From Bacillota bacterium (GTDB taxonomy: Bacteria > Bacillota > Bacilli > Alicyclobacillales > SLC66): a stretch of DNA of 64,000 nucleotides. The notes beneath the pieces were generated by a model. The model saw only the letters and a program-made list of their open reading frames with translations, did not search any database and had not been told where the DNA came from. The translations under genes were made by a program, and so were the position numbers. The DNA lies in assembly GCA_021846285.1 (NCBI GenBank), contig JAJZCB010000004.1, forward strand, positions 18,111-82,110, given 5' to 3'. Shown here piece after piece: positions 1 through 4,279 of this stretch (its first letter is position 1; each line of letters starts with the position of its first letter).

Positions 1-1280
1 GCAGGAAGTTTCTTGAAAGCAAAGGCAGTGACCGAGATAGCGCCTGTATCTTGCGGAAACAGGCGTTCCAGAAACTGCTTGACCACGGCTGTCATGTGCG
101 CCTGAGAATACCTTGCCTTGCCGGTGTACGGTCCGTTGCCCATGTAGGAGTTTTGCAAGAATCCGTATGTCGCGTCCACTTGCGCGTTGTATTGTGACGT
201 TTTGGCCTTGTCAGTCCACGTAAAGCTCCAGTTTACGTCGCCGTTGGGGAGAGTTCGGTTTTGGATTTGAGACGTCAAGCTGAAACCTGCCGGAATGTGT
301 TCCACACGGGTGGCATAGGCGAGGGACTGCGCCTGTGTCCAATTGACTTTGTGCGTCAAAAATGGCGCCTGCGGACCACCGGGAACCAGCGGCGCAGGTT
401 GTTTTGCGGGAGTGAGTGGATGCGCGACTCCATTGGCGTCGATGACTTTCCCTGTCTGCGCGTCAATGACCGGAATGCCGACGCCGTTTCCTTGATTGAT
501 GAACTGTCCGCCGACCCAAAACTGCGGATACGGCGCCATTGGCAACGAGTAGGCGAGCACAATCGCTGGGCCACTGGACGCCTGCCAGTCGTTTTGATAG
601 GACAGTTCCAGCGGCAAACCGTCCGCGTAAGCCGTGTTGGCCTGCGTGAGCGACAGCGCTGGGTGAGCGGACGGGAATTTCACGGTCGACCATGTCTCGT
701 TGACGCTTGTGAGATGCCCGTTTTGGTCGATGGTAACGGCAATACCGTTAAATGGCGCCTGCACTCCGCCGACCATGCGAACGAAGTTGAAATTATACTG
801 GACCGCCTGTGTGAGCGGCCCCATCTGCGGTGACAGGGGTTGAATCTGAACCTGGGAGTACAGATTGGGGTACAGTTTCTTGACCCATGCTATGGCCTTG
901 GCTTTTGCCTGGCTCTCTGACACAGGCAACGGGTACACGAACGTATTTTGCAGCGATGAACGGTTGTAGTTGAGAATCGCCCCCGTCGTCGCGTCCACCG
1001 TAACATTGATGAACTGTTGCTGCTGTGTAGGGGTCGTGAAGCCATACGTGAGCCCATACGAGACCGGGTTACCCTGTCCTCCGGAATCGTACGACTCCTG
1101 GGTTATCTTGTAATAGGATGGAATGTTGAACGTGTGCACGGCAATTTGCTCTGCCTGTGTGAGTGTCACCGTTGCTCGCGCAGCAGCACCGTTCGGCGAT
1201 GCGGCCAACGTTGCCGTCGCCGGCGCCATCGCCAGCAGCAGCGAGGCAGCCATGGGCCACGCACGTTTCCTTTGAATCAT
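1..1280 (-). CDS. Secreted YcdB/YcdC-like (PepSY-related) repeat protein, partial at 3' end
   Basis: The frame is open from an ATG at 1280 to the window edge, giving 426 codons, so the C terminus is missing. An AGGAGG sits just upstream of the ATG. The N terminus is a classical signal peptide: IQRKR, then a hydrophobic Ala/Leu stretch, with likely cleavage near TLAA around residue 27. The mature part repeats the pattern of the YcdB/YcdC family: strands ending in short turns such as VDATTGAILNYNR (around residue 95), VTIDQNGHLTSVNETW and VIDAQTGKVIDANG, plus a Tyr/Pro-rich linker. Family members are extracellular proteins of unknown biochemical role; PepSY-like repeats are often linked to peptidase inhibition. 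Family call from pattern recognition only. It lies downstream of the thioredoxin gene, separated by a 346-bp repeat-rich gap. Confidence 0.75.
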   Translation of the reverse strand, partial: MIQRKRAWPMAASLLLAMAPATATLAASPNGAAARATVTLTQAEQIAVHTFNIPSYYKITQESYDSGGQGNPVSYGLTYGFTTPTQQQQFINVTVDATTGAILNYNRSSLQNTFVYPLPVSESQAKAKAIAWVKKLYPNLYSQVQIQPLSPQMGPLTQAVQYNFNFVRMVGGVQAPFNGIAVTIDQNGHLTSVNETWSTVKFPSAHPALSLTQANTAYADGLPLELSYQNDWQASSGPAIVLAYSLPMAPYPQFWVGGQFINQGNGVGIPVIDAQTGKVIDANGVAHPLTPAKQPAPLVPGGPQAPFLTHKVNWTQAQSLAYATRVEHIPAGFSLTSQIQNRTLPNGDVNWSFTWTDKAKTSQYNAQVDATYGFLQNSYMGNGPYTGKARYSQAHMTAVVKQFLERLFPQDTGAISVTAFAFKKLP

Positions 1281-1408
1281 GAGCGATGCCTCCTCCATGA
1301 GTTTCTCAATTGTGAGAAACAGTCGCCATATAGACGAATCAGCGTGAAAAAGGTTTCATCGCGAGAAGGATTGCCTCAATTCAAGCTCAGCGGCGATCGG
1401 CGCATCTC

Positions 1409-1493
1409 TCTATCCCGGAAAATCGCCGCAGGCGCATTTTCTTCCCGGTTGTTGGTGGCGCGAAGCGCCATGAAAGTCTATCCCGAAAATGCC
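1409..1493. repeat. Intergenic repeat, box element with small hairpin (copy 1)
   Basis: On the minus strand two CGGGATAGA-type boxes flank CTTTCATG, then a short hairpin GGCGC-TTC-GCGCC, then ACCAACAACC. The same order recurs at 56640-56776, where the hairpin is GCTGC-TAC-GCAGC, so the stem bases change in a compensatory way. Together with the palindrome at 1505-1577 it fills most of the 346-bp gap between the YcdB-like and thioredoxin genes. No gene is seen in that gap. Confidence 0.75.
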
Positions 1494-1504
1494 TTCCCGG
1501 CCCG

Positions 1505-1577
1505 CCGGAACCGTATGCTGTGCCGCTTCTCAAACACGGCTGCGCCGAACTCGCCTCGGCACAGCATACGGTTCCGG
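1505..1577. repeat. Large intergenic palindrome (21-bp perfect arms)
   Basis: Positions 1505-1525 and 1557-1577 are perfect inverted repeats. The 31-base loop contains CTCAAACACGG and GCCGAACTCGC, which recur in the loops of the palindromes at 4216-4279 and 4302-4361 and, more loosely, at 61861-61937, although the outer stems differ. No T tract follows, so it does not look like a simple terminator. Confidence 0.85.
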
Positions 1578-1626
1578 CCAAGCAAGTTTTCATTCCTTCG
1601 ATGGGGCCGCACAGCGCCAAGGGTGT

Positions 1627-1929
1627 CTAAGATCCTACAAACGCACGGACTTGAGGCTCGGGCCGGAAGCCAACGAGTTGATTGGCCACCTTCCCCTTCT
1701 TGAACAGGAGCAAAGTGGGCAATCCCATGACGCCATACGGCTGCGCAATGCCTGGATGTTTGTCCGTGTCCACATATAAGAACTGCACTCCGGTTGTCTC
1801 TTTTTCAACCTTTTCAACGACTGGACCCAGCCGCCTGCAATACGGTCACCAGTCAGCTGTAAAAAATGCCACGACCGAACCGCCGGCAGACACGATTTGT
1901 TTAAATTCCGATTCATTCACGACCTTCAT
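1627..1929 (-). CDS. Thioredoxin-family protein with in-frame UGA at the first active-site Cys; probable selenoprotein
   Basis: The gene starts with ATG at 1929 after AAAGGGG (8-nt spacing) and reads 100 codons to TAG at 1627, with a single TGA at 1848-1846 (codon 28). The surrounding residues are FFTADW-[UGA]-PYC-RRLGPVVEKVEK, so the UGA replaces the first Cys of a CPYC active site. The rest is intact: beta strand FLYVDTD, cis-Pro loop GLPTLLLF, C-terminal helix ending RAFVGS. No frame is lost on either side. An 8-bp hairpin begins 10 nt after the UGA and carries a GGUC apical loop exactly 18 nt after it (separate entry). Known biology: bacterial SECIS elements direct Sec insertion at such a UGA. 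Inference: a redox-active selenothioredoxin. The alternative is a nonsense mutation or sequencing error; no selA/selB/selC lies in this window. Confidence 0.8.
1816..1835 (-). promoter_or_regulatory. Candidate bacterial SECIS hairpin inside the thioredoxin gene
   Basis: On the minus strand GGCGGCTG pairs with CAGTCGTT (five Watson-Crick pairs and three G-U pairs) around a four-base loop GGTC. The loop begins 18 nt after the TGA. In the E. coli fdhF SECIS, as I recall it, the GGUC of the apical loop also begins 18 nt after its UGA. This element lacks the bulged U of fdhF. Loop identity and spacing are seen directly; SelB binding is inferred. Confidence 0.7.
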
Positions 1930-1970
1930 GACACGATCCCCTTTCAAGGCAAGTATGGAACTTTCCCTGT

Positions 1971-1984
1971 TCCAGTATATCACT
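1971..1984 (-). promoter_or_regulatory. Extended -10 promoter upstream of the thioredoxin gene
   Basis: Minus strand reads GTGATATACTGGAA, giving the extended -10 TGATATACT about 45 bases before the thioredoxin ATG. The same GTGATATAyTGG core occurs before the alpha/beta hydrolase (5055-5067) and the double-GNAT gene (6287-6299). No good -35 is visible. Confidence 0.45.
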
Positions 1985-2008
1985 TTTGGGGCATGCACTG
2001 CCCTTGCC

Positions 2009-2036
2009 CAGCGTGTGCGATGATCCGCACACGCTG
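2009..2036 (-). terminator. Hairpin after the cupredoxin-like gene
   Basis: Perfect 11-bp stem (2009-2019 with 2026-2036) and a 6-base loop, between the cupredoxin stop codon (2073) and the thioredoxin promoter. No T tract follows, so termination is likely but not certain. Confidence 0.45.
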
Positions 2037-2072
2037 TTCTGTGGGAAGGTCGAGATGCGTCTGTCTACAGGG

Positions 2073-2855
2073 CTATTTGACCACGACCGTCATCTGTACA
2101 TAGCTCATATCCTTCATCTGCACATGGTATGTTCCCGGCTTATTGAACGCGTACGTCCAGGATTGACCCATGCGGACAAGTGGCGATGTCGTTACGCCGC
2201 GAACCACAAAGTGGTCGGTTCCCATTCCATCAAACAAAAACTGCAAGCGTTGTCCTGTTTGCAGATGCACGATGCCGGGATTGAATTTCCCGTTTTTAAC
2301 GACCACTTCCATTGCGCTGCTCGCCTGCATCATCGCAGGGGTCGTGATGACCCAGCCGACAGGAGCGCCGAGGTTGCCGTGCGTGAGCGTATGACCCGCA
2401 ATTTTCGGTTTTAGGGGATTCGCGAGAAGCTTGCCGGTGGGGGCCACATTCCAATATTCACTCTTCGCCGTAATCGCCGGATTCGTGAATGAGACGACAA
2501 CCGGTTTCTTGAATTTCCCGATCAACGTTCCTGTCTTCGTGTTCGTCACCTTGAACGCAAAGTCGATCAGCGCATTCTCTCCTTTGGGAGCCCTCATGGC
2601 AAACTGTTGAACCGGACCCTCAAGCAATTCAAATTGAACTTGCGAAGAAAATGCGCCTGCCGGCACATGAACGACAAGCTCCCCGTATTTGAGAGTCGCC
2701 GCATGGCCTGGACGGATTATTGTCGTCGCCGCCACTTTCGGAAACCCAAGATGTTGAAAATCAGGCGCGCTTGCAGCAAATACAGACCCCACAGTCATAG
2801 CGAACGTTGCCGCTGACACCACCGTCGTTGCAGCGAATCTCTGCATCTTATTCAT
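2073..2855 (-). CDS. Secreted protein with C-terminal cupredoxin-like domain
   Basis: 260 residues from ATG at 2855, with AAGGAGGT 9 nt upstream. The N terminus is a signal peptide (MNKMQRFAATTVV to SVFAAS). Residues about 30-180 form a beta-rich region with a ZU5-like look (YGELVVHVPAGAF, KKPVVVSFTNP). The last 75 residues match the cupredoxin layout: KNGKFNPGIVHLQTGQ, then TDHFVV, then KPGTYHVQMKDMSYVQMTVVV. One His ligand (DHF) is present, but the usual C-x-x-H-x-x-M loop is replaced by a Met/His/Tyr loop without Cys, so a classical type 1 blue copper site is unlikely. It may bind Cu(I) through Met/His or only keep the fold. It acts outside the membrane. The next gene downstream is the probable selenothioredoxin. 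Confidence 0.75.
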   Translation of the reverse strand: MNKMQRFAATTVVSAATFAMTVGSVFAASAPDFQHLGFPKVAATTIIRPGHAATLKYGELVVHVPAGAFSSQVQFELLEGPVQQFAMRAPKGENALIDFAFKVTNTKTGTLIGKFKKPVVVSFTNPAITAKSEYWNVAPTGKLLANPLKPKIAGHTLTHGNLGAPVGWVITTPAMMQASSAMEVVVKNGKFNPGIVHLQTGQRLQFLFDGMGTDHFVVRGVTTSPLVRMGQSWTYAFNKPGTYHVQMKDMSYVQMTVVVK

Positions 2856-3010
2856 CTATTGTGACCTCCTTGTATGTCGTTCAACTGATATAACGAAGGA
2901 AAGTCACTATTGGTTTTTATAAATCTGTTTGCCCTATGTATGGCGATTGGCAATAGCGGGGACATCTGTTGAACTCTCGGAGTTGATCATGAGGAGAAAA
3001 GCTACATGCC

Positions 3011-3049
3011 CTTACATTGGGTGGAGCGGGGAGTCTCCCCCAATGTAAG
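3011..3049. repeat. 11-bp inverted repeat in the 2856-3258 intergenic region
   Basis: CTTACATTGGG at 3011-3021 pairs perfectly with CCCAATGTAAG at 3039-3049. The loop itself can fold (GGAG with CTCC). The rest of this 400-bp stretch shows no credible gene and must hold the divergent promoters of the cupredoxin-like gene and the secreted helical protein. Confidence 0.6.
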
Positions 3050-3258
3050 AGCAAGACCAATTTCAGGTAACCTCGATGATGTGACTCGACTATAACGCCG
3101 CACTCTTGAAAATACCTTAAATCTATCCATCGGCTTATGTCGTATTACTGAACTGATCATCGTCGTGTGATTTTGCTCTCCCCTCTTTAAAGGGCATTTC
3201 AAGAAAGCTCCCTCAGAATTCCAGGCAGGGGTTAGGTCACATGAAAGGAGTGGGGACT

Positions 3259-4188
3259 TTGAAACAAGCACACAAGCTTTGGGCGACGGGAGCAGTGGCG
3301 GCGGTGATCGCGGTCAGCCCTCTGACCGCAGGGTTCGCATTCGCTGATACCACAGCGAACAGCGCATTCACCGTTTCTTACGAACATAACGTCGGCATCG
3401 AATCGGGATTGATGCAACAGGCACAGACTGGCATGACCACCAGCGCGACTGCGCAGGAACAGGCGGCGCAGACTGCAGTGCAAATGGTGGCTGCGCAAGT
3501 GACGGCTCTCTACGGCGCAGAGCAGGCTCTTGCGGGAAGCGCGTCCACTTTGACAACCATCAATACCGCCAGCAACCCGCGCATCTCCGGTTCAATCGCA
3601 TACATGTCCCGCCAGCGCGCAAATTTGCTCAATGCGGCGGATCGCGCCTGGCAACAGATGCGTCTCTTCAAGCGTCGTCACAATCGGGCCAAATACAAAA
3701 AAGCAGTCCACGCGCGCGCCGTGCTGGAGTCCAGGCTGGGAGTCCTCAACCGTGAAATTATTAAAGCCAAAGATCAATTGACAGCCACTTCTTGGAACGG
3801 TCATCCGTATGATTACGCACTGTCAAGCCTGCAACACACGATTTTGCAGCTACAACAGGCGCAAATTCACTATACCCGCACGTGGATCGCTCTTGAGCAG
3901 GCCGCATCCACCAGCACTCCGCCAGCTTCGAGTTCCGCGCCGACGCCAGGGTCCGTGAGTATCGCGGAGCCGTCAGGCATGCCGTTAGTCGCGCCGACTT
4001 CGATTGTGGCCGTATTCTCAATGAACGGTTCCGCCGTGCAACAGGTAGCGGTGCCTGTCACGGACTTCACCAACGGCATTGTGACGTTTGCCGCGCCGAG
4101 CGGTCTCGCCGCTGGAACGTATACGGTGACGGTCACCTTCACGGTGAACGGCGCCACGTACAGTTCGACGGGTTCGTACACAGTCTGA
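3259..4188 (+). CDS. Secreted helical protein with C-terminal Ig-like beta domain
   Basis: 309 residues if started at TTG 3259, which has AAAGGAG 8 nt upstream and gives a clean signal peptide (KQAHKLWATGAVAAVIAVS to FAFAD). An in-frame ATG at 3241 overlaps that ribosome binding site, so I reject it. Residues about 30-215 are helical and rich in Ala, Gln and Arg/Lys, with heptad-like segments (QEQAAQTAVQMVAAQVTALYG, RAVLESRLGVLNREIIKAKDQL). A Ser/Pro/Ala linker follows, then an all-beta C-terminal domain with paired TVTVTFTV and SSTGSYTV strands, like bacterial Ig-like domains. I do not recognise a specific family. An extracellular envelope role is the most that can be inferred. Two large palindromes follow the stop codon. 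Confidence 0.7.
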   Translation: MKQAHKLWATGAVAAVIAVSPLTAGFAFADTTANSAFTVSYEHNVGIESGLMQQAQTGMTTSATAQEQAAQTAVQMVAAQVTALYGAEQALAGSASTLTTINTASNPRISGSIAYMSRQRANLLNAADRAWQQMRLFKRRHNRAKYKKAVHARAVLESRLGVLNREIIKAKDQLTATSWNGHPYDYALSSLQHTILQLQQAQIHYTRTWIALEQAASTSTPPASSSAPTPGSVSIAEPSGMPLVAPTSIVAVFSMNGSAVQQVAVPVTDFTNGIVTFAAPSGLAAGTYTVTVTFTVNGATYSSTGSYTV

Positions 4189-4215
4189 TATTGACAGGAC
4201 GCAGGTACAGCCGGG

Positions 4216-4279
4216 ATCATATGCTGTGCCCCTGCTCAAACACGGCTACGCCGAACTCGCGACGGGCGCAGCATACGAT
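4216..4279. repeat. Intergenic palindrome (copy 2 of the 1505-1577 family)
   Basis: The arm ATCATATGCTGTGCCC pairs with GGGCGCAGCATACGAT with few mismatches. The loop holds CTCAAACACGGCTACGCCGA and AACTCGCGAC. It sits just after the stop codon of the secreted protein, in tandem with the next copy. Confidence 0.85.

Follow-up and report, generated by a model that had tools for sequence, protein, structure and literature searches.

The window analysed in this study is a stretch of 64,000 nucleotides from a draft genome of the order Alicyclobacillales (assembly GCA_021846285.1, contig JAJZCB010000004.1), and near one of its ends a thioredoxin gene lies on the minus strand. The features of this locus are as follows.

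1627..1929, minus strand: putative selenocysteine thioredoxin gene of 100 codons, motif W-U-P-Y-C, stop TAG at 1629-1627 (ORF reading and PF00085 match)
1846..1848, minus strand: in-frame UGA of codon 28, occupying the place of the first active-site Cys (TCA on the plus strand)
1816..1835, minus strand: putative SECIS hairpin, 8 bp with a GGUC loop, -9.5 kcal/mol
1937..1944, minus strand: Shine-Dalgarno-like AAAGGGGA, 8 nt (from GGGG) 5' of the ATG, read by eye

The reading frame, MKVVNESEFKQIVSAGGSVVAFFTADW-U-PYCRRLGPVVEKVEKE..., starts with the ATG at 1929-1927, is closed by the TAG and contains a single internal stop in its 100 codons, the TGA of codon 28. The Pfam thioredoxin profile PF00085 matched residues 2-98 with 78 bits (cut-off 23.5), in agreement with a preliminary description of this DNA as encoding an intact thioredoxin whose lone UGA falls on the catalytic Cys. 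P71, which is presumably the thioredoxin cis-Pro, occurred in every one of the 16 aligned rows. The gene upstream (2073-2855) encodes a cupredoxin-like domain (32 bits against a cut-off of 27), and the search for a sigma-70 promoter or a terminator gave no match within 1350-2150. The genome also carries a second, uninterrupted thioredoxin with the motif WCGPC (C33:12131-12415), which is like the UGA-containing one in domain and length but shares 37% identity with it, has CGPC at the active site, stands on the opposite side of a branch supported at 100/100 in a 65-row tree, and has no comparable hairpin.

Among the NCBIfam models listed, none reached its cut-off with the window thioredoxin, the thioredoxin equivalog TIGR01068 scoring 81.2 bits, below its cut-off of 96.8, and a single-sequence search of 5.8 billion predicted proteins returned two proteins with 30-36% identity. 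The UGA thioredoxin gene escapes these standard models, and standard annotation would split it in two, as the preliminary description had expected. Its kind is already known, for selenocysteine thioredoxins of the UxxC type (PF00085), e.g. WP_010956703.1, appear in a 2026 prokaryotic selenoprotein inventory (PMC13188914), and seven selenocysteine thioredoxins are given in a 2006 table (PMC1794560). The published UxxC proteins share with the window protein the thioredoxin domain and a Sec replacing the first Cys of CxxC; the window protein reads W-U-P-Y-C, with Pro beside Sec, the comparison being made with the UxxC description of the published kind (PMC13188914). The window gene and its relatives probably form a further, mostly U-P-x-C branch of a known kind. 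The literature search found no paper on selenocysteine in Alicyclobacillales or on a thioredoxin UGA selenoprotein in Alicyclobacillaceae; the branch may still have been published.

Homologues were surveyed in three sets of genomes. In the first (151 genomes, the own genome and 150 relatives), a TGA-containing homologue was present in at least 17 genomes among the matches listed, and in the other 16 of these the TGA occupied the same codon within U-P-x-C. A phylum survey of 398 genomes yielded, among the matches listed, the own genome and G466, which has W-U-P-H-C and a hairpin of the first register described below. In a class survey of 398 genomes the best 20 loci (106-142 bits) all held a TGA, and the lower loci among the matches listed (101 bits or less) were all free of stops; eight UGA loci were new, five with UPxC and three with UGPC, each with a hairpin. 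Taken together, the UGA was found at the same codon in at least 26 genomes of 12 families (the own genome and 25 others), in a UPxC motif in 23 genes and UGPC in three. The preliminary description had called selenocysteine thioredoxins rare; this needs the qualification that the family is no isolated case, occurring in at least 20 of the 398 genomes of the class, and that the kind had been recorded before (PMC13188914, PMC1794560). At three of the loci (L230, L231 and L232, from G733, G740 and G756) the motif reads N-G-U-G-P-C instead of W-U-P-x-C. At another (L149, from G124) the codon immediately preceding the selenocysteine TGA is TAG, whereas it is TGG in most relatives and codes for Gly in L148 and L230-L232; the TAG is either a nonsense mutation or a sequence error.

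This distribution bears on the simplest alternative, namely that the window gene is a pseudogene, an ordinary Cys thioredoxin carrying a nonsense mutation or a sequencing error. Its loss would be tolerable in a genome with an uninterrupted WCGPC thioredoxin, and the extra TAG in G124 could be taken to point the same way; however, the same TGA lies at the same codon throughout the 26 genomes of 12 families, in 25 of them no other stop interrupts the match, and the two same-genus copies (n=2), 97-98% identical to the window thioredoxin in protein, keep the UGA. A pseudogene is accordingly so improbable that it can practically be set aside. Because 25 other genomes share this TGA, a random nonsense mutation is as implausible as had been supposed, and re-sequencing to TGC or TGT, the outcome that would have exposed a sequencing error, is an untenable expectation.

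The putative SECIS hairpin reads GGCGGCUG-GGUC-CAGUCGUU from 1835 to 1816; its stem begins 10 nt after the UGA, and 18 nt separate the UGA from the GGUC loop. The 8-bp hairpin (-9.5 kcal/mol) is thus where the preliminary description had placed it, and the resemblance to E. coli fdhF which had been noted there was found in the E. coli K-12 sequence record, in which GGUC likewise stands 18 nt after the UGA. The two elements, which belong to different genes, share this loop at this spacing and differ in the stem, which by perfect-stem search is 4 bp in fdhF and an uninterrupted 8 bp in the thioredoxin. The search scores the genuine fdhF element poorly (4 bp, -2.7), and its values are therefore to be read as a comparison among like genes and not as a calibrated SECIS test. 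According to PMC13188914, the bSECIS limits are a loop of 3-9 nt with G in its first two positions, a stem of 4-16 bp, a spacing of 16-37 nt and an MFE of -7.5 or lower; the thioredoxin hairpin lies within them (loop 4, 8 bp, GG, 18 nt, -9.5). The hairpin exceeds what chance would produce: when the gene was recoded synonymously, 3.3% of 1000 recodings reached equal hairpin strength. An Rfam scan of positions 1-4200 gave two sub-threshold microRNA matches and nothing else.

A hairpin follows the UGA in all 26 UGA homologues examined, at either of two registers and with stem-loop energies of -7.3 to -12.9 kcal/mol: in register A (11 of the 26) a GNNC loop lies 18 nt after the UGA, and in register B (15 of the 26) a GGU loop lies 23 nt after it. 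By our own energy values, 25 of the 26 lie within the bSECIS limits as given in PMC13188914, the exception being the hairpin of L226, which at -7.3 alone misses the energy limit of -7.5; none of 19 Cys thioredoxins lies within them, their strongest hairpin being -4.4 kcal/mol. Under the synonymous control (1000 recodings each) the fraction of recodings as strong as the real gene was 0.003-0.129 for the first 17 UGA genes (0.05 or less in 12, 0.052-0.129 in five), 0.001-0.098 for the other nine, and 0.12-1.0 for the 19 Cys thioredoxins. Sliding the 3' arm lowered the paired cells from 92% to 59% or less. RNAalifold gave only -2.8 for 17 sequences together, because the two registers were mixed; the alignments were later split by register, a choice of sets that itself uses the structure. 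Strong covariation was not shown in these sets, the observed score being reached by 46 of 500 column shuffles for the register A set and by 219 of 500 for that of register B.

The preliminary description had proposed a search of the genome for selA, selB, selD and tRNA-Sec. In the host genome, a draft of 164 contigs that is 98.2% complete, profile searches found selB (384 bits against a cut-off of 242) and selA (590 bits), both uninterrupted, and two selD genes over the cut-off, one of which adjoins selA. The selD genes are as follows.

C33:15619-16545 (L016): selD with one in-frame TGA
C112:2510-3427 (L017): selD with one in-frame TGA

The two TGAs lie in the motifs SGUGCK and GAGUACK, which we take to be the usual selenocysteine place of SelD. 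The tRNA-Sec was not found in the draft assembly with RF01852, a same-genus selC region or the 97-nt gene as queries. Eight of the 19 RF01852 matches were checked and rejected, ARAGORN assigning them to Ser, Leu, Gly, Arg and Tyr tRNAs; no tRNA lay near selA, selB or selD; only a flanking stretch of the 3-kb same-genus selC region matched the assembly (73%), and the 97-nt same-genus tRNA-Sec gene had no match there. The proposed set was thus recovered except for the tRNA, and a joint absence of selB and tRNA-Sec, which had been named as the result that would speak against selenocysteine, did not occur. Both same-genus genomes have a tRNA-Sec (61.2 and 60.4 bits; tRNA-SeC(tca) by ARAGORN), and these are 98.7% alike over 151 bp.

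selB together with selC is the published signature of the selenocysteine trait (PMC1273633). Across the first survey, every one of the 16 further UGA-thioredoxin genomes carried tRNA-Sec, both same-genus ones included, and selB exceeded the cut-off in 63 of the 151 genomes, comprising 16 of the 17 with the UGA thioredoxin and 47 of the 134 others (Fisher P 3e-6, with genomes that are not independent). The one UGA-thioredoxin genome with no selB match, G010, is 73% complete. It may be asked whether the host has lost selC, in which case the UGA would act as a stop, no selenocysteine would be made, and the C-terminal half might restart at GTG 1788. The unsuccessful tRNA-Sec search in the host assembly speaks for this, but selA and selB are uninterrupted, two selenocysteine-type selD genes are kept, the two same-genus genomes have the tRNA and the host assembly is a 164-contig draft, and we consider such a loss very improbable; the missing tRNA-Sec probably reflects an assembly gap.

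The Cys counterparts of the gene were sought with a 16-row profile in the 5.8 billion predicted proteins, which gave 770 matches, of which the best 120 were classified at residue 28: 87 were CGPC, 11 CPPC, eight WCPGC, seven had W and seven were other. As predicted earlier, Cys occupies this position in homologous proteins, and in the one gene read at the DNA level, a plasmid-borne WCPGC homologue from Exiguobacterium that is 53% identical to one of the WCPGC proteins, the codon is TGT. This gene has no hairpin at either register, its best one being -5.9 elsewhere. A plasmid search with the window thioredoxin returned 959 records, all below 60% identity. The seven W forms (six W-W-P-x-C and one G-W-G-P-C) are what would be expected from a gene caller reading TGA as Trp. 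They could also be cited for a UGA decoded as Trp or Cys, whether through an alternative genetic code or by a suppressor tRNA, although a gene caller set to code 4 would give the same W. Against such decoding, TGA serves as an ordinary stop, closing 22 of the window's 42 non-overlapping ORFs of at least 200 aa (counted as ORFs and not as verified genes); the Cys homologues have Cys at this residue, and the selenocysteine machinery and selenocysteine-type selD genes are present. We regard it as highly unlikely.

A tree of 44 rows was built from 18 UGA genes, six W forms, the eight WCPGC forms and 12 other Cys thioredoxins picked from 47, the 11 CPPC proteins, the eight new class-survey UGA genes and the Exiguobacterium homologue being left out; with proteins of about 100 residues, its deep forks are unsure. 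The 12 other Cys thioredoxins were separated from the remaining 32 rows at 100/100. The WCPGC proteins, which belong to the 32-row clade of the UGA forms, formed one group (91/85) within a 13-row branch (98/92) that also holds three UGA genes and two W forms. Six of the eight have a source name, five from the Bacillus cereus group and one from Oceanobacillus, and the five that were aligned are 38-41% identical to the window thioredoxin, with Cys where the UGA forms have Sec. With the CGPC side taken as outgroup, this nesting of the WCPGC forms in the UGA clade would imply a single loss of selenium there. A previous reading from a 65-row tree, that the UGA clade lacked any Cys form, was overturned by these proteins from the profile search.

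We conclude that the gene encodes a thioredoxin with UGA in place of the codon for the first active-site Cys and that, aided by the hairpin that follows in the mRNA, the cell very likely decodes this UGA as selenocysteine. Insertion of selenocysteine at codon 28 is predicted from the UGA at the Cys site and from the presence of the same UGA and hairpin in 12 families. SelB carrying Sec-tRNA would bind the hairpin loop and decode the UGA. In thioredoxins, the first active-site residue attacks the substrate and the second Cys resolves the intermediate; here the selenol of residue 28 would attack disulfide substrates, Cys31 would resolve the mixed selenenyl-sulfide, and thioredoxin reductase would recharge the Sec28/Cys31 pair.

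The neighbourhoods of some relatives offer a lead on function. One relative (54% identity) lies in the following gene row.

L137:2808-6689: sulfur and CsoR-family gene row consisting of TauE, TusA-rhodanese, rhodanese-metallo-beta-lactamase, TusA, DUF302, the Sec-thioredoxin and a CsoR-family repressor (PF02583)

CsoR-family and rhodanese genes are also near the L136 thioredoxin (62% identity), and a CsoR-family gene is near that of L145; L138, as close as L137, has no such TusA/rhodanese/CsoR row, and inspection by eye showed varied neighbours at the remainder of the 14 loci listed. Copper genes surround the Exiguobacterium Cys form. Because TusA, rhodanese, metallohydrolase-rhodanese and CsoR-family genes lie beside some relatives, and copper genes beside one Cys form, we speculate that the substrate may belong to sulfur (persulfide) or copper stress. 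A broader proposal, put forward tentatively and with somewhat more doubt than conviction, is that the branch, mostly W-U-P-x-C and occurring in at least 12 families within a single phylum, was selenocysteine-based by origin, carried its SECIS in either register (GNNC +18, GGU +23), lost selenium once toward the WCPGC of the Bacillus cereus group and Oceanobacillus, and serves persulfide or copper stress instead of general disulfide reduction.

With UGA and Cys forms in one clade, the question of what advantage selenium gives a thioredoxin can be put in a clean comparison. The hairpin in 26 of 26 UGA genes, with none at the registers in one WCPGC gene, likewise offers a system for the gain of a SECIS, its shift within a gene and its loss.

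Directly after the thioredoxin gene, positions 1504-1578 of the window hold a perfect inverted repeat of 22 nt, with 31 nt between its arms. A related 20-mer recurs at 4211-4230, and similar peptides were seen by eye in ORFs beside selB (L001); the element is perhaps a dispersed repeat.
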